Source: Flavobacteriaceae bacterium
Lineage (GTDB): Bacteria; Bacteroidota; Bacteroidia; Flavobacteriales; Flavobacteriaceae
DNA length: 12,403 bases
Assembly (NCBI GenBank): GCA_002401385.1
Contig: NVSY01000010.1
Coordinates: 50,231-62,633, forward strand
Direction of reading: 5' to 3'
Every line of letters begins with the position of its first letter. The stretch's first letter is position 1. Both the position numbers and the translations under genes were made by a program. This document shows positions 2,006 to 10,949 of the stretch, one piece after another. Below the pieces are notes generated by a model. That model ran no database searches, had not been told where the DNA came from, and saw only the letters and a program-made list of their open reading frames with translations.

Positions 2006-2230
2006 CCCCCGCTCGGGCACGATTACTCGCATAGGCTCGTGAAAAATTTGTATCGTGTGTTCACCCTAGTTTTAAATCCCTAAAAATATTTATATTTTTT
2101 AATAATCCAATTTCTCCTGCACAATCAACAGGTCTTACTTATTGCTAGACGTTGTACGGCTCTACTGGTGGAGGCCACGTGATAAATCTATTCTTTTGAG
2201 CGTTAGCGAGTAATCGGTAGCTAGCGGGGG
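2006..2230. mobile_element. MITE-like element with 33-nt terminal inverted repeats (copy A1)
   Basis: Bases 2006-2038 and the reverse complement of 2198-2230 match at 25 of 33 positions. Two blocks are perfect: CCCCCGCT at the outer end and CGATTACTCGC further in. The interior has no open frame of note, so the element is non-coding and MITE-like. Its core (from TCACCCTAG to AATCGGTAGC, about 2061-2221) recurs at 8782-8941. The right terminal repeat runs directly into repeat B through a shared GGGGGATAAG. I see no convincing target-site duplication. Confidence 0.6.
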
Positions 2231-2505
2231 ATAAGTTCGAAATAATTATGAGCTAACACTTTTATAACGTATTGCATATTAACTAGCGTACATGCTAGTT
2301 CTTTAATTGATACCTGTTTTACTTTTTTGTTAACTGTCTGTGAATAAAGGGTGTTTAAACCTGCGTGTAACTTAAATTTATGTATTTTTGAAAGGAGAGC
2401 TAGCGTTATATGCCTTTTTTATAAATAGTTTTAATAATGTTCCTGTATTGTAGATAATGGATATACCGTCAAGTTTAAGGTTTCTATTGTAGATATACAG
2501 GTGTT
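2227..2505 (+). repeat. Repeat B, copy 1 (most diverged)
   Basis: This is a ~279-bp non-coding repeat, also at 5571-5850 and 9583-9860. It opens with GGGGATAA, holds ATAACGTATTGCATATTAAC, a hairpin (AACTAGC-GTACAT-GCTAGTT), a Bacteroidota-like -7 box TATTTTTG (2383-2390), the purine stretch AAAGGAGAG, and the end block ATGGATATACCGTCAAG to ATACAGGTGTT. Similarity to the other copies stops at GTGTT (2501-2505), where cargo begins. A mini-ORF intact in copies 2 and 3 is frameshifted here (ATG 2410, stops after four codons). The second mini-ORF is cut at 2490 by TAG in place of TGG. All copies point the same way, with cargo downstream on the plus strand. Confidence 0.9.
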
Positions 2506-3130
2506 AGCTTCGATTAAGAAAAAAAATAAAGACCAATTGAAGATTGTCAATAAAGATAAAATGTTTACTCTGATTTCTGTCGATAAAAAGATAGACTCGG
2601 AAGGTGCTGTAAAATTAGAATTAAACGGAAATCCTTTTTTACCAAGAGATTTTAATAGTAAAGAGTATTGCAAATACCAACTAATAATTTATGGTATAAT
2701 AGAGCAAAATAAATTCATTAAAAAAATCAGTGAATATGTTGGAGGTTTTATTGATATTGAAGAATTAGAAAATAAAAAATTGGATTTTTGGAGTGACGCA
2801 TATCAAATTGGAGTGTTCGAATTTGAAAAATATGAAGAAGTTGTAAAACCTTTTGAAGAAAATGATTGGATAAAAGAACATAAGTCATTAATTGATTACT
2901 TTTATAAGCAATCTGACTTGCAGACAGAAGATAATGTTCGTTGGAGAAAATTCATTGACAATTTGGAGTTTTTCTTAAAAAAGGAATCAGGAAATTCAGA
3001 AATGAAAAACGAATTCTTAGAAGGTAAAACAGAATCTATAAATGCTAATAAGAAAGCAGTTGCGTTAACAAAGAGAATATTCAATTTGATTGAGCAATAT
3101 AAAGCAGAAGAAAATGAAAACGGAAGCTAA
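2501..3130 (+). CDS. Hypothetical protein, first cargo of array 1 (start uncertain)
   Basis: The frame gives up to 209 residues and resembles no family I recognise. It is hydrophilic and lysine/glutamate-rich, with no signal peptide or membrane segment, so it is probably cytoplasmic. The C-terminal third (EFFLKKESG to NLIEQYKAEENENGS) looks helical. The GTG at 2501 lies inside the end of repeat B. The frame is open even further upstream through the repeat, so the given start is an outer bound. A TTG at 2537 (giving (M)KIVNKDKMFTL) or the ATG at 2561 (giving MFTLISVDKK) may be the true start. An A8 run at 2518-2525 sits where the neighbouring B3 cargo has its ATG. The gene is followed by element E1. 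Confidence 0.68.
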   Translation: MLASIKKKNKDQLKIVNKDKMFTLISVDKKIDSEGAVKLELNGNPFLPRDFNSKEYCKYQLIIYGIIEQNKFIKKISEYVGGFIDIEELENKKLDFWSDAYQIGVFEFEKYEEVVKPFEENDWIKEHKSLIDYFYKQSDLQTEDNVRWRKFIDNLEFFLKKESGNSEMKNEFLEGKTESINANKKAVALTKRIFNLIEQYKAEENENGS

Positions 3131-3140
3131 CTTAGGAAAC

Positions 3141-3336
3141 CTAAACGCAATACGGGTTTGGTGCTTATCCAAAAGTCCAATACATTTAACGAACACCGCC
3201 AACACGAAGTCTCACCGAAGGTAAATCTTTTGATTTGGCTTTACAATAAAAAAGATAAAACAAAATAAAAAGTTTTGGCTAATTGCTAGATTGAAAGTCC
3301 GTACTTTCTAATCCGTACTGCGCTTAGCCAAACGTT
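3141..3336 (+). repeat. Element E1: long inverted-repeat cassette-end site
   Basis: The outer arms CTAAACGCAATACGGGTT (3141-3158) and AATCCGTACTGCGCTTAG (3310-3327) pair at 16 of 18 positions, counting one G-T wobble. Inside are TTTGGCTAA (3274-3282) with TTAGCCAAA (3324-3332), and a small hairpin GAAAGT-CCGT-ACTTTC (3293-3308). The middle (CCAACACGAAGTCTCACCGA and beyond) is nearly identical to E3. The element starts 10 nt after the stop of the hypothetical gene and ends in AACGTT, 15 nt before the next start codon. Confidence 0.75.
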
Positions 3337-3351
3337 ATCTTCAATTAAGAA

Positions 3352-4092
3352 ATGAGTGAACATTACGAATACGACAAAAAAATTACTGCCAGTATTCTTA
3401 AGGATATTGAAGAGCATAAAGTGCATATTGTTTTCATAGAAAGTGATGGATATAATCCTGGGTTCGGATATTCAATTGGACTCGTTAAAGAGTTTAATCA
3501 CCCTGAATTGATAATAATTGGTCTGAACCCGGAATCAACTGGAGCAATAATCAATAATGCAAAAGATGAAATTGAAAAAGGAACCAAGTTTATAGAAGGT
3601 ATTAACTATCCCGGTTTCTTGGTTGAACTTCCTGTTCAGTTTCTTGAGGTAAAAAAAGAACATTACCCCGATTATTTAGGATATGCAGGATGGTATAACG
3701 ATAATTCAATAGACTTTCCAAGCCTTCAAATTGTTTGGACTGATAGAGAAGGGATTTTTCCTTGGGAATCTGAGTTTAATGAGAATTTCAAGTTCAAACA
3801 ACCATTACTGGATAGAAATACTGAATTTAAGTTTCTCGAAGAACGAAATCTTGGAGTATTTACAACCTCTGATGTATTGGAGGGGAAGCCAGTAAAATAC
3901 GTCTACCATAATGAGGATGGTGATTGGCAATTTCAATCAGAACAAGACCCTGATTTGAACAAAGCTAAACTTGTTTGCCTAGAAGAACTTGTGAAAAAAG
4001 ACTCAACCCTGAATGAAATATATTACTTGAATTATGGAGAGTCAGCTGAAAGAGAAAGCGTTGGGGAAAAATGGAAGATATTTGAAAAGTAA
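3352..4092 (+). CDS. DUF4262-domain protein with Imm33/DUF2185-like tail
   Basis: This is a 246-residue cytoplasmic protein. The first ~150 residues carry the DUF4262 pattern: IVFIESDGYNPGFGYSIGL (residues ~26-44), HPELIIIGL, then DREGIFPWE followed by QPLL. The last ~75 residues (VFTTSDVLEGKPVKYVYH, DGDWQF, then LEELVKKD) resemble the DUF2185/Imm33 immunity-type domain. I assign that tail from pattern only. No catalytic function is established for DUF4262. The ATG at 3352 is the first in frame and sits 15 nt after the AACGTT end of E1. The leader between them (ATCTTCAATTAAGAA) is close to the sequence just after the end of repeat B copy 1. The gene forms a single unit with E2 behind it. The immunity role is inferred. 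Confidence 0.85.
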   Translation: MSEHYEYDKKITASILKDIEEHKVHIVFIESDGYNPGFGYSIGLVKEFNHPELIIIGLNPESTGAIINNAKDEIEKGTKFIEGINYPGFLVELPVQFLEVKKEHYPDYLGYAGWYNDNSIDFPSLQIVWTDREGIFPWESEFNENFKFKQPLLDRNTEFKFLEERNLGVFTTSDVLEGKPVKYVYHNEDGDWQFQSEQDPDLNKAKLVCLEELVKKDSTLNEIYYLNYGESAERESVGEKWKIFEK

Positions 4093-4105
4093 AAAAAGAA
4101 GATTA

Positions 4106-4288
4106 CACGGTATATAGCAAATAGGACGTTCGGGGGATTACGAAAGTTCAGTGCTTTTACCATCACCGCCAAATCGTTGATTTGGCTTTTAAGAATGAAT
4201 AAGATAAAAACAAAATACAACGCTTTGGCTCAGTGCAAACTTGAAAGTTTATCACTTTATACTGCCCTACTTGCCATATACTAAACGT
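4106..4288 (+). repeat. Element E2: long inverted-repeat cassette-end site
   Basis: The arms GTATATAGCAAATAGG (4110-4125) and CCTACTTGCCATATAC (4266-4281) pair at 14 of 16 positions. A perfect central hairpin GCCAAATC-GTT-GATTTGGC lies at 4168-4186. It is followed by the family's A-rich tract (AAGATAAAAACAAAA) and CTTTGGCT, as in E1 and E3. It lacks the ACACGAAGTCTCACCGAAGG insert that E1 and E3 share. The end is AAACGTAGG, a variant of the AACGTT end, 24 nt before the TTG start of the next gene. Confidence 0.72.
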
Positions 4289-4312
4289 AGGGCGTAATTA
4301 AAATAAAAAAAA

Positions 4313-5407
4313 TTGCAACAAAAAACTACTAAAAAAGAAAACCAACATTACGTTCCTAAATTCTATTTGAAATATTTCTCAATAGAGAATAATAAAAAAA
4401 CTATTGGAATTTATAATGAGCGGAATAAACTTTTTGTTCCAAGTACTAAACTTGAAAATCAGGCTTCCGAAAAGTATTTTTATGGGAAAGATGGTATAAT
4501 TGAGGATTGGTTATCCACTATCGAATCTTTAGTTGCTCCAATTTTTTCAAACATTTTAAAAACTCAAGTTTTACCAAGATTTCAATCAACAACTCAAGTA
4601 GACATATTGTTTTTTCTAATTCTTTTAGATTTAAGAAATCCGATTAGAAAAAAAAACTTTAAACGAACAACTGAATTATTAAAAGAACGAATTTTAGAAG
4701 TAAATCCCGATAATAAGAATTCAGAACTTTTTAAAGCAATAGAACTTTCTGAATTAAAAGATGAAACACATCAGAGAAATCTTTTAAATACAAAAGAGCA
4801 TATTCCTTATTTGATGGATTTACATTTTAAACTGATTAAAAATAATAGTAATAAACCATTTATAATATCTGATAATCCACTTATTAATTATAACCAATTT
4901 TTAGAGAAAATAAAATGGAAATTTGGAAGTCATAATGGTTATGGAATTATTGGAAAACAATTATTTTTTCCTTTGAGTGATGAATATATGCTGATTTTTT
5001 ATGATTCTAATATTTACAAAGTTGGTAATAAAAGAGAAAAAATAGTAATATTTGATGACGAAAAATCTATAGATCAATTGAACATCTTACAATATCTAAA
5101 TAGTGATCAAAATATATATTTCAATAACAAAGCAACAAAATTCTATATTGAGAATTTGATAAATAAAGCAAAGAAGTATAATAAAGCCAATGATACATTA
5201 TCCGAGGTTTTTTCAAAGATTGAAGATAATGGGAATACAACTGAAAATGATGAAATTATTTTTTTCGAGACAACAGATTTAAAAATAAACCTAACATTAC
5301 CAAAAATTAAGTTGCTCTCAAAATCTAAAGGAATTGTATTTGATGATAAAATCGTTCAATTAAGACCAAGAGTTAAAGAATATCGAAAATATAAAAAAGA
5401 AAGATAA
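4313..5407 (+). CDS. DUF4238-domain protein, TTG start
   Basis: This 364-residue cytoplasmic protein carries the DUF4238 signature QHYVPKFYL at residues 11-19. The later family block, FIISDNPL (about residue 183) and FFPLSDEYMLIFY (about residue 218), is also present. The family occurs widely next to mobile and defence genes but has no established activity. The only usable start in front of the signature is TTG at 4313, because a TAA lies in frame at 4304 and no ATG precedes the motif. Residues ~270-364 extend beyond the usual DUF4238 core and end in a basic tail (VKEYRKYKKER). The gene sits between E2 and the untranslated stretch leading to repeat B copy 2, and is the last cargo of array 1. 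Confidence 0.85.
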   Translation: MQQKTTKKENQHYVPKFYLKYFSIENNKKTIGIYNERNKLFVPSTKLENQASEKYFYGKDGIIEDWLSTIESLVAPIFSNILKTQVLPRFQSTTQVDILFFLILLDLRNPIRKKNFKRTTELLKERILEVNPDNKNSELFKAIELSELKDETHQRNLLNTKEHIPYLMDLHFKLIKNNSNKPFIISDNPLINYNQFLEKIKWKFGSHNGYGIIGKQLFFPLSDEYMLIFYDSNIYKVGNKREKIVIFDDEKSIDQLNILQYLNSDQNIYFNNKATKFYIENLINKAKKYNKANDTLSEVFSKIEDNGNTTENDEIIFFETTDLKINLTLPKIKLLSKSKGIVFDDKIVQLRPRVKEYRKYKKER

Positions 5408-5570
5408 AAAACTACTCTCAACACCTCATGAAAATTATGATGTGATTTCTTGCAACTGTCTATAAATTACTTGACCAATAAAAATCAATGCTTTTGCAAT
5501 TGGCTGTAAGTTGTTCATTAAAAAAAAATGCTTAATCGTAACTGTTTCTTCTTTCCAACAGTTTAATGCA
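5408..5570. other. Non-coding gap between array 1 and repeat B copy 2
   Basis: I see no gene here. The gap holds AACTGTT-N10-AACAGTT (5540-5563), a 7-bp perfect inverted repeat. It also holds a nested pair CAACT/AGTTG around CCAAT/ATTGG between about 5454 and 5516. That could be a decayed E-type element behind the DUF4238 gene, but the outer arms and the ACGTT end are not recognisable. No copy of the MITE core precedes this repeat B. Confidence 0.35.
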
Positions 5571-5850
5571 GGGGATGACTCGAAATAATAAATGAGCCAT
5601 CATTTTTATAACGTATTGCATATTAACTAGCATACTTACTAGTTAATTAATTTACACCCGTTTTACTTGTTGTTAATTGTCTGTAAATAAAGGGGGGTAA
5701 AACGTGCGTATAACATAAATTTATCTATTTTTGAAAGGAGAGGTACTTTGTATGACCTTTTTTATAAATAGTTTTAATATTACTCCTCTACTGTAGATAT
5801 AATGGATATACCGTCAAGTTTAAGGTTTCTATTGTGGATATACAGGTGTT
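5571..5850 (+). repeat. Repeat B, copy 2
   Basis: This copy is nearly identical to the one at 9583. The exceptions are a few bases at the left end, a GGGG/GAGT difference near 5695, and a short patch at about 5779-5800. It carries a 9-bp hairpin (ATTAACTAG, 8-nt loop, CTAGTTAAT) near 5621, TATTTTTG (5726-5733), AAAGGAGAGG, and two mini-ORFs. The direct repeat TGGATATAC occurs at 5803-5811 and 5835-5843, close to the boundary. Similarity ends at GGTGTT (5845-5850), and the lipoprotein cargo follows 39 nt later. A weaker promoter candidate is TTTG (5747-5750)-N18-TAGTTTTA (5769-5776). Confidence 0.92.
5752..5796 (+). CDS. Possible 14-codon leader peptide within repeat B copy 2
   Basis: ATG at 5752 encodes MTFFINSFNITPLL. 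It lies downstream of AAAGGAGAGG, one of the few Shine-Dalgarno-like stretches in the window. The equivalent frame in copy 3 (9764-9805) encodes MTFFINSFNNTPV. The two differ only at the 3' end, where the DNA differs by substitutions and a small indel yet both stop. Copy 1 has lost a base and stops after four codons. Translation is unproven; it could be a leader peptide or chance. Confidence 0.3.
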   Translation: MTFFINSFNITPLL

Positions 5851-5867
5851 GTAACCCATTGGTGTGA
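5802..5867 (+). CDS. Possible second mini-ORF crossing the repeat B/cargo boundary
   Basis: ATG at 5802, six bases after the first mini-ORF's stop, encodes MDIPSSLRFLLWIYRC and then cargo-specific CNPLV before TGA. In copy 3 the same peptide stops exactly at the boundary (TAG 9860-9862). In copy 1 it is cut at 11 codons. It may be a translated leader, or an incidental frame kept because the DNA itself is conserved. Confidence 0.22.
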   Translation: MDIPSSLRFLLWIYRCCNPLV

Positions 5868-5889
5868 AAAACCACAAAGCTTAAAGATA

Positions 5890-6366
5890 ATGAGAAAAAT
5901 TATAGTTCTTTTATTGGTAATATCTATATGTTCTTGTAAATCACAGAAGTTATATAAAACAGTAGATTATAATTATATAAATGAACATCTAATTGTAAAA
6001 AGAAATATTACAAAAATACGTGAAGGAAAACTCATAACACTGAATATAAAAAGCAATATTAGTCTTAAAGGGTATTTTACAATTAATGAGCGTTATAACA
6101 AACCTGTTCATCTGACCATTGATACAAAATGTCCCTACAAACCATTTTTTCAATCTAACAATGAAATTAGGTTCGTATTCTCTGACCCTCAAATATCAGA
6201 TGAACCAAAAATTGCAATTCCAATTCCCGAAAAAGTGGAGTTCAAGATTAGTTATATACTTATGGATGTACCTGAAAATGAGAATTTCACTATAAATGGG
6301 AGAATTCTATATTTAGTAAATAACCGTCCAGCACCTGAATTAAAAATAGTCGCAAAATTTAGATAA
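5890..6366 (+). CDS. Small lipoprotein, unknown function
   Basis: This 158-residue protein has a lipoprotein signal: a basic MRK start, a hydrophobic core IIVLLLVISI and lipobox ICSC with Cys16, followed by KSQK. The mature part is beta-rich (ITLNIKSNISLKGYF, KVEFKISYILMDV) with one further Cys. No family is recognised. The ATG at 5890 is preferred because it places the signal sequence at the N-terminus. It lies 39 nt after the end of repeat B copy 2 and is followed within 20 nt by element E3. This makes it the cleanest single-gene unit in the window. A periplasmic or outer-membrane immunity lipoprotein is one possibility, inferred from the context only. Confidence 0.82.
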   Translation: MRKIIVLLLVISICSCKSQKLYKTVDYNYINEHLIVKRNITKIREGKLITLNIKSNISLKGYFTINERYNKPVHLTIDTKCPYKPFFQSNNEIRFVFSDPQISDEPKIAIPIPEKVEFKISYILMDVPENENFTINGRILYLVNNRPAPELKIVAKFR

Positions 6367-6382
6367 ACGGTTTACAACACAA

Positions 6383-6583
6383 CCTATAACGCAATGCGTA
6401 TTTGTTTCTAACTCCAAAGTTTAGTACATTTAACAATCACCACCAACACGAAGTCTCACCGAAGGTAAATCTATTGATTTGGTTTTTGAATAAAGAAAGA
6501 TAAAAACAAACAATAGCTTTGGCTCTGTGCTTATCGAAGGATTCGTAAATTTTAACCCCGCACTGTGCTTAGCCAAACACGTT
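6383..6583 (+). repeat. Element E3: long inverted-repeat cassette-end site
   Basis: The arms CGCAATGCG (6390-6398) and CGCACTGTG (6559-6567) pair at 8 of 9 positions with one wobble. They extend by TAA/TTA across a bulged C. The inner arms TTTGGCT (6518-6524) and AGCCAAA (6571-6577) are perfect. The middle is nearly identical to E1 from CCAACACGAAG to TTGATTTGG. The end is CACGTTGGTAA, but no gene starts soon after: the next start codon is 160 nt away. The 5' arm TATAACGCAATGCGTATT resembles TATAACGTATTGCATATT inside repeat B. Confidence 0.72.
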
Positions 6584-6744
6584 GGTAAACATAAAAAAAC
6601 AAATACATACTCAAGGACTAAATTACATAAAAGGCATTTAGTCAACTAATATGTTTTTAATTTAATTATTAATAATACACTTTTGTAATTGCCTTTCAAA
6701 AATTGAATAATTAGTATTTTCGCTTATCAAAAATAGTATAACCT
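6584..6744. other. Upstream region of the 633-residue secreted protein
   Basis: This stretch is AT-rich and has no gene. It contains the hairpin GACTAAAT-N12-ATTTAGTC (6616-6643). A possible -7 box TATTTTCG (6715-6722) differs from TAnnTTTG at one base, but no well-spaced -33 TTTG is visible. The hairpin could mark the end of array 2 transcription or an operator. Confidence 0.35.
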
Positions 6745-8646
6745 ATGAAAACCACTTTATTTTTCACCTCCATTTTTATTTTTTTATCATTACAAACCTT
6801 AAAAGCTCAAAACAAATTTGATATTGTTTTTCCGCAGGCAAACAGAGATGAAGTATGCCAAAGCTGTACCCGAATTTTTCAACAGAAACCTAAAGAAGTA
6901 AAATTTTCAATAGTAAAAGATAAAGCCAATAACCTCTATTTTGAGGTAAACAACAAACAATGGTTTAATCAGCTTTTTAAAAATTCAGGAGATGGTATTG
7001 CTATAGATGTAGTTACCAAAGAACGCTATGACTGCATGGAGGCTACACCTGAAGCAAGCCAAATTAGAGGAGAGTTATTACGACCTGTTTATTCAGCTGT
7101 TTTAAAAAAGAAATTAAGACCTTCTCCTCAAGGAAAAAATAGGTTCAGAACACGAGTAGGAAAACTTTCTGCTTCCTATACAGGTAAAGATGTGGAATTC
7201 AACATTCTTTTTTTAAGTAATAAAAATTTATGCAGATACCAAACCATTTTCAATTTACAAGCATACCAATGGGGACTTTTAGATATGGGAATGTATTTAG
7301 ATTCGCTTACCTATAAGACTAAATTAAACGCACTAGCTGATAAGGAGAGTTTTACACTTAAACATAAAAACTTACAATTCACCATTCCATTTGAGAAAAA
7401 TAAGTCGAACTATTCCCAAGAAGATATAAAACCCTTGTACGACTCTCTTAGACTAACAGACTATTATATAAAAAAAATAAACATTCGTGCCTACTCTTCT
7501 GTTGAAGGGAATTTGGAACGAAATTTGGAACTGCAAGAACAACGCGCCAATAGCATTGTATCTGCATTGCAAACTTTTCAAAAACCAACAATTATTACTG
7601 AGGTTTCCTCTTCTGAAAATTGGGTGGAATTTTTAAATGATATTAGTAATACGGAACATGAACAACTAAAAAACCAGAAAAAGGCTGTCATTAAATCTAA
7701 ATTAAATGCAGGTCTTTCCAATACTTTAGAACACATTCTTAAAAATCATAGAAAAGCGGTAATTAATCTAGAATTAGAAAAAATAGATAGGTATAAGGAT
7801 AAGAATATAAGTATGCTTATAAAACTTTTTAACGAAGTTCTAGGTCAAGAGAAAGTAGATGAAGCTATCGAAATTCAAAATTCTATTTTTGAAAAATTAA
7901 AAGACAAACAAACCGACCCTAATGTTCTAAATCAAATGAACATCCCTCGCCAATTAAAATATACACTCTTCTTCAATAAAAATGCTGCATTTAGGTATTT
8001 AATGAACGAACGTAATTTACTAATAGCCTATGGAGAATTACAAGATCTGGAAAAACTGGCTCCTAAAAATGGTAAGGTTAAATACAATTTAGCAGCATTA
8101 AAATTTACAATTTGGAAGCATAATGTACAATCAGTAAATGAACAAAATTTTAAAAAACAGATTCTGACACTTAAGAACTATGGCATTTCAAAAGCCTTAG
8201 TTAATAGAATGTTGGTAAATTACCATATTGTTAAAAGCGAAAAATACCTACGTAAACAAGATTATGTAAACAAAGATAAATCTGTGGACTACATCTATGC
8301 CAACTACAAAAATGTTCCGCTAACAGATTATGATTATTTAAGTTTGGCACAATTCCTCGCCTACTATTCTAATATTGATAAGGCTGTGAATATATTAGCC
8401 AACAAAGTAAAAAGTATTGATGTTATTGAAAATTTACTTTTTTACTATCTCAACTTAACTTTAATAGACAAGGAGTTAACCAAAACAACAGATTACAGAA
8501 CCATTATGCTAAATGCCCTAAATATGAACAAAACAAGGTTTTGTTCCATTTTTAACGCTTTAGAAGATGGCGGAGTAACTTTTCAATTGCTGGAAGACGA
8601 TTTTTTAAGAGAAACCTATTGTGAAAATTGCAATGACCAAAAATAG
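6745..8646 (+). CDS. Secreted 633-residue protein with OmpA-like segment
   Basis: The N-terminus is a signal peptide (MKTTLFFTSIFIFLSLQTLKAQ, cleavage near residue 21). A CQSC pair follows at residues 38-41, and a CENC pair sits near the C-terminus (626-629). Residues ~240-277 (INIRAYSSVEGN to QRANSIVSALQ) carry the OmpA-type pattern of a beta-strand ending in YSSVEG, then N..L...RA..I...L. This resembles the peptidoglycan-binding fold, but the rest of that domain is not evident. The last ~250 residues are helical and could form TPR-like repeats. The location is the periplasm or cell surface. It is followed by no E element and preceded by no repeat B boundary, so it may be a resident gene between two cassette arrays. 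No family name is assigned. Confidence 0.85.
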   Translation: MKTTLFFTSIFIFLSLQTLKAQNKFDIVFPQANRDEVCQSCTRIFQQKPKEVKFSIVKDKANNLYFEVNNKQWFNQLFKNSGDGIAIDVVTKERYDCMEATPEASQIRGELLRPVYSAVLKKKLRPSPQGKNRFRTRVGKLSASYTGKDVEFNILFLSNKNLCRYQTIFNLQAYQWGLLDMGMYLDSLTYKTKLNALADKESFTLKHKNLQFTIPFEKNKSNYSQEDIKPLYDSLRLTDYYIKKINIRAYSSVEGNLERNLELQEQRANSIVSALQTFQKPTIITEVSSSENWVEFLNDISNTEHEQLKNQKKAVIKSKLNAGLSNTLEHILKNHRKAVINLELEKIDRYKDKNISMLIKLFNEVLGQEKVDEAIEIQNSIFEKLKDKQTDPNVLNQMNIPRQLKYTLFFNKNAAFRYLMNERNLLIAYGELQDLEKLAPKNGKVKYNLAALKFTIWKHNVQSVNEQNFKKQILTLKNYGISKALVNRMLVNYHIVKSEKYLRKQDYVNKDKSVDYIYANYKNVPLTDYDYLSLAQFLAYYSNIDKAVNILANKVKSIDVIENLLFYYLNLTLIDKELTKTTDYRTIMLNALNMNKTRFCSIFNALEDGGVTFQLLEDDFLRETYCENCNDQK

Positions 8647-8781
8647 TTACAAGATAAAGTGTAAATTAAAAATAATCGTACAATGGTATATTGATATAAA
8701 TGAAAACGATTTACCAACAATGGCTGAAAAAAATGCTAAATTAAAATGATTAGAAAAATCCGATAAACATATAAGCCGTGG

Positions 8782-8946
8782 TCACCCTAGCTTAAATCCA
8801 TAAAAATATTTATATTTTTTAATAATCCAATTTCTCCTGCACAAACAACAGGTCTTACTTATTTCTAAATATTGTACGGCCTACTGGTGGACGCGACGTG
8901 ATATAACTATTCTTATGAGCGTTAGCGAGTAATCGGTAGCGCTGCG
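8782..8946. repeat. MITE core, copy A2 (left end missing)
   Basis: From TCACCCTAG to GAGTAATCGGTAGC this matches 2061-2221 closely, including TAAAAATATTTATATTTTTT, TTTCTCCTGCACAA and GAGCGTTAGCGAGTAATCGG. The left terminal inverted repeat seen at 2006-2038 is not clearly present here. The right end keeps GAGCGTTAGCGAGTAATCGGTAGC but then diverges instead of running into GGGGGATAAG. Unlike copy A1, it is separated from repeat B by about 640 bp holding two small genes. Confidence 0.75.
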
Positions 8947-8988
8947 GTTATTCGTGTGCCATCTGGGGGCGGAATCTGAATGCATATT

Positions 8989-9192
8989 TCATGATTTTGA
9001 CTTTCTTCTTGTTGGATACATGACTTGCTGCTCTTTGAATTGACTGATTTCCTTTCTAAGTGTCTTATTGATGTTTTGAATCAAATTATTCTGGAATTTC
9101 ATGATTCCTAATAAATCGTGCATTGCATTTAGGTTCTCCAATTGTTTGTAGACAATCTCCTCTAAATCTGCTTTGGTGTATCTTTTACTCAT
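8989..9192 (-). CDS. Small basic helical protein, divergent partner of the XRE regulator (orf67)
   Basis: A 67-residue protein starting MSKRYTKADLEEI. It has one long amphipathic helical stretch (IVYKQLENLNAMHDLLGI, then IQNINKTLRKEISQF) and a basic tail (YPTRRKSKS). No family is recognised; a coiled-coil or DNA-binding accessory is plausible. The frame is open to an ATG at 9261, but that longer start is rejected. A consensus promoter TTTG-N19-TAGATTTG (9262 down to 9232) would overlap the extra codons and puts transcription near 9226, leaving a ~33-nt leader before the ATG at 9192. The gene is divergent from the XRE gene with 139 bp between start codons. A regulator and its controlled partner is the usual meaning of that layout. 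Confidence 0.7.
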   Translation of the reverse strand: MSKRYTKADLEEIVYKQLENLNAMHDLLGIMKFQNNLIQNINKTLRKEISQFKEQQVMYPTRRKSKS

Positions 9193-9231
9193 AACATTAT
9201 ACTTTATAAATATATCTTTAGACTTTCTATA

Positions 9232-9262
9232 CAAATCTAATGATAATCTATAGAAATTCAAA
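9232..9262 (-). promoter_or_regulatory. Consensus Bacteroidota promoter for orf67
   Basis: Read on the minus strand, TTTG (9262-9259) is followed by 19 bases and then TAGATTTG (9239-9232). This is an exact match to the Bacteroidota -33/-7 consensus TTTG-N19-TAnnTTTG. It fixes the start of the minus-strand gene at 9192. It is the clearest promoter in the window. Confidence 0.7.
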
Positions 9263-9331
9263 ACAATACTTTAGTTTTTCTATATTTTTCTTTAATCAAC
9301 CTATATTTACGGATATAAATTCGAAAGTATC

Positions 9332-9550
9332 ATGACTTCCTTAGGACTATATCTTACTAAAAAATCTGTGAATAGAGCAATGGTTTCCAGACGAACAGGA
9401 ATCAGTCAAGCTCGATTATCTCAATTGACCTCAAATGAATCAACCAAGCTTAGAGCAGATGAATTATATCTGATTGCTTTGGCAATTGATATTGATCCAG
9501 GGGAAATGTTTAAAGATGTATTTAGCAATTTGAAATTGGACAATGATTAG
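9332..9550 (+). CDS. XRE (Cro/C1-type) helix-turn-helix transcriptional regulator
   Basis: A 72-residue single-domain regulator. The helix-turn-helix covers about residues 12-57: NRAMVSRRTGISQARLSQLT is the recognition region, followed by LRADELYLIALAIDIDPGEMF, the usual fourth and fifth helices of the Cro/C1 fold. There is no extra ligand or peptidase domain. It lies divergent to orf67 and 32 bp before repeat B copy 3, so this three-part block may be the regulatory module of the repeat family. A plausible but weak promoter is TATATTTA (9302-9309), placed to give a very short leader. Autorepression and control of the divergent gene are inferred. Confidence 0.88.
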   Translation: MTSLGLYLTKKSVNRAMVSRRTGISQARLSQLTSNESTKLRADELYLIALAIDIDPGEMFKDVFSNLKLDND

Positions 9551-9582
9551 GAAATGAACTCATTGATGTTCAGCTAAAAGTA

Positions 9583-9860
9583 GGGGATAAGCTCTAAATA
9601 ATAATGAGCCATCATTTTTATAACGTATTGCATATTAACTAGCATACTTACTAGTTAATTAATTTACACCCGTTTTACTTGTTGTTAATTGTCTGTAAAT
9701 AAAGGGAGTTAAAACGTGCGTATAACATAAATTTATCTATTTTTGAAAGGAGAGGTACTTTGTATGACCTTTTTTATAAATAGTTTTAATAATACCCCTG
9801 TATAGTAGATAATGGATATACCGTCAAGTTTAAGGTTTCTATTGTGGATATACAGGTGTT
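9583..9860 (+). repeat. Repeat B, copy 3
   Basis: From ATGAGCCATC on this copy is almost identical to copy 2, with the same hairpin, TATTTTTG (9738-9745), AAAGGAGAGG, first mini-ORF (9764-9805) and end block. The second mini-ORF (9812-9862) stops exactly at the boundary. After GGTGTT (9855-9860) the sequence AGTACCAATTAGAA leads into the ATG of the secreted-protein cargo. It starts 32 bp after the XRE stop codon with GGGGATAAG, the same left edge as copies 1 and 2. Confidence 0.92.
9764..9805 (+). CDS. Possible 13-codon leader peptide within repeat B copy 3
   Basis: Encodes MTFFINSFNNTPV behind AAAGGAGAGG. It is the counterpart of 5752-5796, with the first nine residues identical. Expression is unproven. 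Confidence 0.3.
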   Translation: MTFFINSFNNTPV

Positions 9861-9879
9861 AGTACCAATTAGAAAAAAA

Positions 9880-10740
9880 ATGAAGAGCATAATAATACTA
9901 TTTACGATATTAACATTTGGAAACATTTATTCCCAAACTGATAGAAACGGAAATCCTGTTTTTAATTCAATCATTACGAATGAACAAAAATTTGAGGACT
10001 TCAATTTGGTTTCTAATTATTACACCCTGAAAAACAATATTGAAAACAAGAATTCGTCAGTTTTTGTTACAGAAAACCCATCACTTTACGAAATTGAAAA
10101 ATTTGCAACGGAACTATCATCTGATTTTTTCCTAATTACGAAAGAACAACAGATGTCAAATCTGATTTTAATTGTTAACGAACCTCAAATGGCTTTTGTA
10201 GTTATAAATTTGGCGACTAATAAACAATCTGAATTTGATTTTAAGTTAAATGGAGATATTACAGAAAATCGAGCAAATGAAATAATTAAAGGGAAATACG
10301 ATTCTGATGCAAAAATAAAAAAAGGAAAATTATATTTTAATAAGAAAAAATTTAAAATAATTTCCTCCAAAGACATAAATAAGGCTGTTCTATCGCTTAT
10401 AAGTAAACAAGGCTTGGGGAAAACAAATCCTTCAGACATAAAAATGCCATCTCAAGAGGAATTGAAAAACATAATATTAATTGAAACAAAAAAAGGCGGA
10501 CAACTTGATTACTTTACAGAAATAAAGGGAAAAGAAAATGACGGAATACAAATTAAGCCAGGAGTTTTCAGTACAAAATTGGGGATTGCACTTTATAAAT
10601 GGGGACGAGCAACATTTGAAAATGGAGTAAATACACTTGAAGATTCCTATAAGATTTTTGCAGAATTCAAAGGGCGTGAATTAAACCGAAAAGAAAAAGA
10701 CTATATCAAACTCGGATTCAATAAAGAATTGGAGAAGTAA
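9880..10740 (+). CDS. Secreted protein, unknown function, first cargo of array 3
   Basis: A 286-residue protein starting MKSIIILFTILTFGNIYSQ, a clear signal peptide with cleavage after YSQ. The frame is also open from a GTG at 9844 inside repeat B, but that would bury the signal sequence behind twelve residues, so the ATG at 9880 is preferred. The mature protein is lysine-rich with no recognised domain. One stretch (MSNLILIVNEPQMAFVVINL) looks like a beta-rich core, and the C-terminal part (LGIALYKWGRATFENGVNT) is more helical. No lipobox cysteine follows the signal, so it is predicted soluble in the periplasm or exported. It is followed by element E4 six bases after the stop. The role is unknown. 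Confidence 0.82.
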   Translation: MKSIIILFTILTFGNIYSQTDRNGNPVFNSIITNEQKFEDFNLVSNYYTLKNNIENKNSSVFVTENPSLYEIEKFATELSSDFFLITKEQQMSNLILIVNEPQMAFVVINLATNKQSEFDFKLNGDITENRANEIIKGKYDSDAKIKKGKLYFNKKKFKIISSKDINKAVLSLISKQGLGKTNPSDIKMPSQEELKNIILIETKKGGQLDYFTEIKGKENDGIQIKPGVFSTKLGIALYKWGRATFENGVNTLEDSYKIFAEFKGRELNRKEKDYIKLGFNKELEK

Positions 10741-10745
10741 CTGGT

Positions 10746-10933
10746 GCTAACAAAGTATAAAAAATAATAAGGGTTAAGTGTCAAACCCAAAGTTGGTACA
10801 TTTTTACAAAGTCCGCCAAATTTAAAATTTGACGGTTAAAAGAAAAATAACGGTAAAATTGTTAAATTTGGCTAAGTACTAAATCCGAAAAGTAAGTACA
10901 TTTCAATCCCTTACTATTCTTACACAAAACGTT
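10746..10933 (+). repeat. Element E4: long inverted-repeat cassette-end site (diverged member)
   Basis: The outer arms at 10760-10773 (ending AATAATAAGGG) and 10908-10921 (starting CCCTTACTATT) pair at 12 of 14 positions and extend across a bulge. The central hairpin is CCGCCAAAT-TTAAA-ATTTGACGG (10813-10835). ATTTGGCTAAGTAC occurs at 10866-10879, as in the other members. The primary sequence differs from E1-E3 but the layout and the AACGTTGGTAA end are the same. The next ATG is 16 nt after the end. Confidence 0.68.
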
Positions 10934-10949
10934 GGTAATAATTTGAAGA

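Follow-up and report, generated by a model that had tools for sequence, protein, structure and literature searches.

A 12,403-nucleotide stretch of a Flavobacteriaceae genome (G000, contig C45, positions 50231-62633; hereafter the window) carries three ~280-bp repeats that, together with related sequences elsewhere in this genome and in its relatives, very probably belong to an integron-like system combining a XerA-like tyrosine recombinase (the integrase) with many copies of a promoter-attI unit, here called the leader or dock. Judging from the sequences compared below, the system works like an integron and is outside the canonical IntI type because its integrase is without the domain that defines the IntI family and its attI is present in many copies. 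The source assembly comprises 3.15 Mb in 60 contigs and is 82 % complete.

Repeats with a shared right edge and variable cargo

The three repeats, all in the same orientation, had been described in an earlier note on this DNA and were confirmed (Table 1), with the first and the third being 86 % and 95 % identical, respectively, to the middle copy over its 280 bp. A fourth copy, 94 % identical to the middle one, lies about 1.5 kb outside the window (C45:64115-64385). A DNA search of the same genome with the repeat yielded 41 matches at E ≤ 10, 21 of these below E 0.001, and many matches span just the last ~70 bp. An iterated profile brought together 54 leader copies (31 in G000, 13 in G002 and 10 in G003), a tally drawn from stretches fetched around search matches and not a whole-genome count. 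A plasmid collection queried with leader 3 and its flanks gave no match.

The right end is reached by 47 of the 54 copies; in 38 of these a GTT lies no more than 4 nt away, in 34 cases exactly at the model end. Comparison of the 110-bp leader ends of these 47 copies showed similarity at E < 1e-5 for 412 of the 1081 pairs; for the 600 bp downstream of the edge, the same threshold was passed by 2 of the 1081 pairs, one of them across just 31 bp. Because the leader ends are alike and the downstream sequences almost never are, the mostly constant right edge and the variable cargo are real. Thus, the claims of the earlier note that similarity stops at this edge and that the genes behind the copies are unrelated were borne out, downstream genes not being common to the copies, and its fixed right edge holds for all but a minority of the copies. 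The common left start that it also proposed did not stand: the copies open with differing terminator-like or other sequences, and at copy 1 a distinct repeat terminates at about position 2230. In G000, the leaders stand at the head of gene runs that are one to several genes long.

Predicted promoter and attI-like parts of the leader

The left part of the repeat is a predicted promoter and not a recombination site because the copy linked to an integrase gene (see below) conserves about the last 80 bp only. The earlier note indicated promoter-like sequence in the repeat; the leader carries a conserved TAnnTTTG box, described as the sigma-A -7 box of flavobacteria (PMC9723704), which is present in 42 of the 44 leaders of the window's genus compared with 22 % of shuffles, and is likewise found in the leaders of G029, a genome from another genus. 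Upstream of the leader, a hairpin with z < -2 was found in 10 of 24 cases. The ribosome-binding-like sequence of the same note, GAAAGGAGAGG, lies directly behind the -7 box; given its position near the expected start of transcription, and given that Bacteroidia are described as not using Shine-Dalgarno sequences (PMC9976891; PMC6847099), it is probably no ribosome-binding site. The earlier note took the repeat for an attI-like landing site combined with an expression leader, and this reading is favoured by the paired ends of the cargo, by the presence of the same edge behind a recombinase gene in a congener and by the TAnnTTTG box. That promoter and attI form a single unit is strongly suggested by the sequences.

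Two smaller observations concern the same region. The untranslated part of the leader contains a short open reading frame (ORF; ATGACC...TAG, e.g., window positions 5752-5796), kept in several copies as judged by eye and reminiscent of ORF-11 of attI1. In many integrase-linked attI sites (L220, L219, L262, L268, L283 and others), the crossover GTT is immediately preceded by a short perfect palindrome.

Putative cassettes with complementary ends

Integron cassettes carry R' at their start and R'' inside the attC site, with R'' complementary to the R' of the same cassette. Inspection of the window by eye revealed that the first bases behind the GTT recur, reverse-complemented, beside the stop codon of the gene. 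We therefore took 30 leaders that have both a GTT and a closed ORF, reverse-complemented the first 9 nt (counted from the GTT) and scored their best match between -30 and +60 of the stop codon. Eleven of the 30 leaders pair at 8-9 of the 9 positions, six of them at 9/9. Permutation of the boxes among leaders (2000 runs) produced a mean of 1.04 leaders at 8/9 or better (maximum 5) and of 0.29 at 9/9 (maximum 3), and the boxes of foreign leaders placed at the same positions reached 8 in 22 of 1110 comparisons. Pairing at 8 or more was seen in 8 of 21 leaders of G000, 3 of 4 of G003 and 0 of 5 of G002. Within the window, two genes pair at 9/9 and three more at 8/9 (Table 1); for one of the latter, in the first cassette behind leader 2, a different GTT in the same scan likewise scores 8/9. 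Taken with the edges, the pairing strongly suggests that cassettes are inserted at G-TT.

A possible case of natural exchange involves one cassette, 89 % identical over 1105 bp, that is located behind clearly different leader types in G000 and G002, the homology extending from the conserved leader end to ~110 bp past the stop codon. Transfer between docks would be the simplest reading of this pair.

Behind several genes sit ~200-bp imperfect palindromes ending in AACGTT, and some cassettes have short attC-like sites of 60-70 bp. These sites were recognized with an in-house profile, which detected 20 of them in the first set of stretches, and by pairing. Folding of the bottom strand with DNA parameters gave z < -2 for 39 of 50 attC-like sites (median -3.3); apart from the three window sites, all had been selected because both sides pair at 9/9. 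Small asymmetric loops recur in the attC-like stems of the L220 set (by eye and without a control).

The integrase candidate

In the congener G003, an ORF for a 372-aa tyrosine recombinase is directly followed, in the same direction, by the last ~80 bp of the leader, as recognized by a sequence model of its right part, and attC-profile matches are found 4.5 and 6.2 kb further on. The earlier note had pointed to a tyrosine recombinase near one of the copies as the thing to look for; it is found in this congener, directly before the edge, and no fitting one was found in the assembly of G000. The G003 protein (P0001) contains PF00589 and a SAM-like N-terminal core-binding domain, and the catalytic residues are invariant across 15 homologues. 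Its NCBIfam scores are all below the listed cut-offs: 189 bits against 220 for the XerA/integron integrase model NF040815, which together with TIGR02249 gives the best scores, 165 against 329.6 for XerD and 155.5 against 335.15 for XerC. With TIGR02249 (cut-off 265), P0001 and another family member score 181 and 228 bits, respectively, and a homologue in G344 does pass the XerA cut-off (236.6 bits). Homologues at E ≤ 1e-50 are present in 45 of 99 relatives.

The canonical integron is defined by an integrase with an IntI-specific additional (I2) domain (PMC9668308; PMC4792948), whose proposed roles are recognition of the extrahelical bases in folded attC sites and prevention of the second cleavage; XerCD are without it (PMC4792948). 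In the alignment to VchIntIA (2a3v), the homologue has 21 residues where the integron integrase has 64. Likewise, the spacing between the KGxKDR and HxLRH motifs is 58-63 in 71 of 71 homologues (78 were examined, 7 of them without one of the two motifs) and 63-66 in two Xer proteins, compared with 100 in 15 of 15 canonical IntI. By both measures, the family is without the I2 insertion.

The predicted structure of L236, the closest named homologue (pLDDT 88.6, pTM 0.71), includes an extra beta-rich N-terminal domain of ~75 residues (1-75) that is not in the aligned parts of XerA and IntI. By sequence and by Foldseek, the integrase matches XerA/XerD (4a8e, 5hxy, 1a0p) best, followed closely by IntI4 (2a3v). 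A tree built from 61 homologues, 15 IntI and 3 Xer proteins of the genus places IntI as a single long branch within the homologues and the Xer proteins separately. Given that, in a smaller tree, the homologues as one clade were not rejected (approximately unbiased (AU) test, p 0.182; long branches), the data are compatible with IntI lying either inside the new family or next to it as its sister. The linkage seen in relatives suggests that the XerA-like integrase acts on the docks and cassettes.

Two PF00589 matches were found in G000, on contigs C25 and C52 and none on the window's contig, and a TIGR02249 search of this genome returned weak Xer-type matches only. As candidates for the enzyme, the phage/conjugative transposon (CTn)-type integrases of C25 and G002:C117 were rejected because they are of a different type by eye and unlinked to a leader edge.

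Arrays in relatives and a second genus

The scan of named genomes, on which the array counts rest, used the 80 best of 565 relatives, mostly Bacteroidota. Behind these 80 homologues, 79 of 254 same-strand ORFs pair at 9/9 and 109 at 8 or more; the corresponding counts are 2 and 20 for 248 upstream ORFs, and 2 and 10 for 82 reverse-strand ORFs. At least one 9/9 cassette was detected at 32 of the 51 testable loci among the 80 best homologues, in 21 cases at the first ORF, the upstream control giving 2/76. Several arrays have almost no gaps; in G065, for example, counting ORFs of 93 aa or longer, 6 of the first 7 that follow the integrase pair at 9/9.

G029 (99 % complete) has 10 attI matches of its own, different in sequence: four full 189-bp leaders, five matches of about the last 59 bp and one behind an integrase. 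At 7 of these 10 attI copies, a cassette that starts exactly at the GTT pairs at 9/9. The leaders fall into two families that differ in their left parts, with sharp left breaks, and have the right part in common. An additional attI is located behind a truncated second integrase ORF. Canonical IntI above the cut-off was found in 0 of 397 genomes of the window's family, compared with 105 of 395 genomes sampled across the phylum.

Integrase homologues also occur in records named Spirochaetes, Undinarchaeales, Desulfurellales, Deltaproteobacteria and Halonatronum (L252, L292, L305, L310 and L315); no 9/9 cassette was seen behind these five, two of which have little downstream sequence.

Proposed model and alternative explanations

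Each 280-bp repeat would be a stand-alone expression dock, consisting of a flavobacterial promoter followed by an attI-like site that ends in G-TT, with a terminator-like hairpin ahead of the promoter in some docks. Cassettes with an attC-like site would be inserted at the G-TT, one to a few in tandem, and transcribed from the promoter of the dock. The expected enzyme is a ~370-aa XerA-like tyrosine recombinase of the kind that heads cassette arrays in many Bacteroidota, and solo docks would be served by it in trans. We infer the recombination of these sites by this enzyme, the service in trans and the activity of the promoter from the arrangement of the genes and sites. The chances appear about even that this is a distributed integron, with an I2-less integrase and dozens of chromosomal promoter-attI docks, whose integrase family would be the ancestral stock of IntI or else have invented cassette recombination independently.

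Several observations weigh against the integron-like model. At the leaders, 9 of 47 right edges have no GTT within 4 nt and the upstream hairpins are limited to 10 of the 24 cases. In the pairing test, 19 of 30 leaders fall short of 8/9, including all five from G002, and 3 of the 11 pairing leaders are those of the window on which the idea was based; excluding them leaves 8 of 27. The attC profile yields just 20 sites for 54 leaders, the folded sites were picked for pairing at 9/9, with two duplicates among them (L206 and L237, from one species), and z is above -2 for 11 of the 50, including two of the three window sites. The cassette common to G000 and G002 could also be a vertically inherited gene behind a diverged leader. 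The absence of a fitting integrase from the source assembly (82 % complete) is matched by the lack of homologues at E ≤ 1e-50 in G000, G001 and G002. At the G003 integrase locus, the first five ORFs are unpaired and a single one, 4.8 kb on, pairs at 8/9; in G029, two attI copies are without a pairing cassette and one copy was itself not located in the right orientation by the script used. Finally, the leader was hardly ever detected beyond the genus: it was found in 4 of 299 family genomes, the source genome included and the fourth match being weak, and in 5 of 60 relatives, two of these as 27-30-bp matches.

Among the alternatives, the strongest takes the leader for something other than an attI, namely a promoter cassette without a gene or a site derived from attC, moving in the manner of cassettes. 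Promoter-bearing gene-less cassettes are described in Vibrio (PMC11014356), and the ATAACGTATTGCATATT of the leader resembles, by eye, the left end of the attC-like sites found here (ATAACGCAATGCGTATT). However, the left end of an attC site should follow its own cassette, whereas copies 2 and 3 have the same left end, and it is only the right end of the leader (in G029, the last ~59 bp) that is common with the integrase-linked site. The two leader families of G029, which differ at the left and agree at the right, also speak against this explanation, which we consider unlikely. A mobile promoter resembling miniature inverted-repeat transposable elements (MITEs), inserted ahead of existing genes, would account for dispersed near-identical copies and for the sharp left breaks of the G029 leaders, but not for the fact that the right neighbour is a cassette end or for the presence of one cassette behind two different leaders; such insertion is very improbable as an explanation of the whole, although the copying of the leader itself may use a MITE-like route.

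A similarly small probability attaches to an ordinary cluster of attC sites lacking integron integrases (CALIN), derived from a canonical IntI integron that the assembly missed. The incompleteness of the assembly, the lack of a nearby integrase and the occurrence of canonical IntI in more than a quarter of the sampled phylum genomes are in its favor; yet no genome of the family passed the IntI cut-off, the XerA-like integrase is found in nearly half of the relatives searched and heads arrays, and the many promoter-attI leaders are left unexplained. Least credible of all is a conserved regulon promoter with a 5' untranslated region and no recombination, in which the edge would mark the end of the leader RNA. 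The TAnnTTTG box and the location ahead of genes agree with it, but neither the reverse complementarity between the first 9 nt of the downstream unit and a box near its stop codon nor the recurrence of the same leader end behind a recombinase gene follows from it.

Comparison with known systems

The proposed system resembles IntI integrons (classes 1-3 and sedentary chromosomal integrons) in the G-TT edge, the unidirectional genes, the pairing of R'' with the R' of the cassette, the location of attI beside a tyrosine recombinase gene with cassettes starting from its GTT (seen here in relatives), the promoter upstream of attI, and the folding of the attC bottom strand as a long imperfect hairpin (in 39 of the 50 sites and one of the three in the window). 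It differs in the integrase, which is without the IntI-specific domain and is encoded codirectionally with the cassettes, and in the many attI copies with promoters of their own, as opposed to one attI beside intI. The codirectional arrangement is also found in Treponema. Like CALINs, the window contains at least two attC-like sites and the source genome has cassette clusters without a nearby integrase; unlike CALINs, the clusters begin with a promoter-attI leader and the integrase is present in relatives. The Delta-attI cassettes and attG sites described for class 1/2 integrons (PMC12901181) similarly involve pieces of attI inside arrays, away from the integrase, but there the attI piece replaces the attC of the cassette, whereas here a promoter-attI unit precedes the cassette. 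Finally, the integrase shares with XerA/XerD its top sequence and structure matches and a similar spacing of the catalytic boxes, and is distinguished from them by the extra N-terminal domain (~75 residues), the link to cassettes and a branch apart from the three Xer proteins.

In the open-licence PMC literature, with subscription papers and preprints outside the scope of the search, we found no Flavobacteriaceae integron whose integrase is without the IntI domain and no multi-copy promoter-attI leaders. For Bacteroidetes, one survey lists just one complete integron, that of Salinibacter (PMC9024848). If the model is correct, a cassette system with an I2-less integrase would open both the origin of integrons and the necessity of this domain to direct testing, and IntI-based tools would overlook many integrons of Bacteroidota. 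In standard integrons, expression is confined to the first cassettes. Many promoter-attI docks would then represent a new escape from this rule, with many cassettes first in line and expressed together.

Features of the window and its neighbouring genes

Table 1. Leaders, putative cassettes and attC-like sites in the window (window coordinates)
Feature	Position	Strand	Remarks
Leader copy 1 (predicted promoter part and attI-like end)	2227..2505	+	GTT at 2503-2505
Leader copy 2	5571..5850	+	GTT at 5848-5850
Leader copy 3	9583..9860	+	GTT at 9858-9860
attI-like end of leaders 1/2/3	2453..2505, 5798-5850, 9808-9860	+	Inside the part common with the G003 integrase-linked site; left limit approximate
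TAnnTTTG -7 box of leaders 1/2/3	2383..2390, 5726-5733, 9738-9745	+	Read from sequence
Cassette 1 (TT of R' to G of next)	2504..3334	+	R' 2503 / R'' 3123-3131 pair 9/9
Cassette 1 ORF	2501-3130	+	209 aa, no Pfam match
attC-like site, cassette 1	3123..3342	+	Bottom-strand z -1.9
Cassette 2, DUF4262 gene 3352-4092 (PF14081)	3335..4287	+	R' 3334 / R'' 4098-4106 pair 8/9
Cassette 2 right junction		+	Reads ACG-TAGG, a decayed R'
Third gene behind leader 1, DUF4238 (PF14022)	4313..5407	+	No R'' found
First cassette behind leader 2, gene 5890-6366 (lipoprotein-like by eye)	5849..6581	+	R' 5848 / R'' 6370-6378 pair 8/9
attC-like site, first cassette of leader 2	6370..6589	+	Bottom-strand z -0.8
Second cassette behind leader 2, gene 6745-8646 (633 aa)	6582..8718	+	R' 6581 / R'' 8710-8718 pair 9/9
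Cassette behind leader 3, gene ends 10740 (secreted by eye)	9859..10931	+	R' 9858 / R'' 10743-10751 pair 8/9
attC-like site, leader 3 cassette	10743..10939	+	Next R' at 10931; bottom-strand z -2.4
Later genes behind leader 3: 74 aa, SUKH/SMI1-KNR4 protein, 201 aa	10932..12185	+	No cassette end found within the window

PADLOC found nothing among eight window proteins, and a Pfam search of ten left six without a family or without one above the cut-off. A ~225-bp MITE-like repeat with inverted ends is present at 2006-2230, where it abuts the left edge of leader 1, and at about 8792-8940, with three matches in the source genome. The minus strand of positions 1-1888 is taken up by a large ORF adjoining the first leader (799 aa in L065), which by eye resembles TonB-dependent receptors. 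Upstream of leader 3 lie an uncharacterized 90-aa ORF on the opposite strand (8989-9261) and, on the plus strand, a gene for a small Cro/C1-type helix-turn-helix protein (PF13443; 9332-9550).

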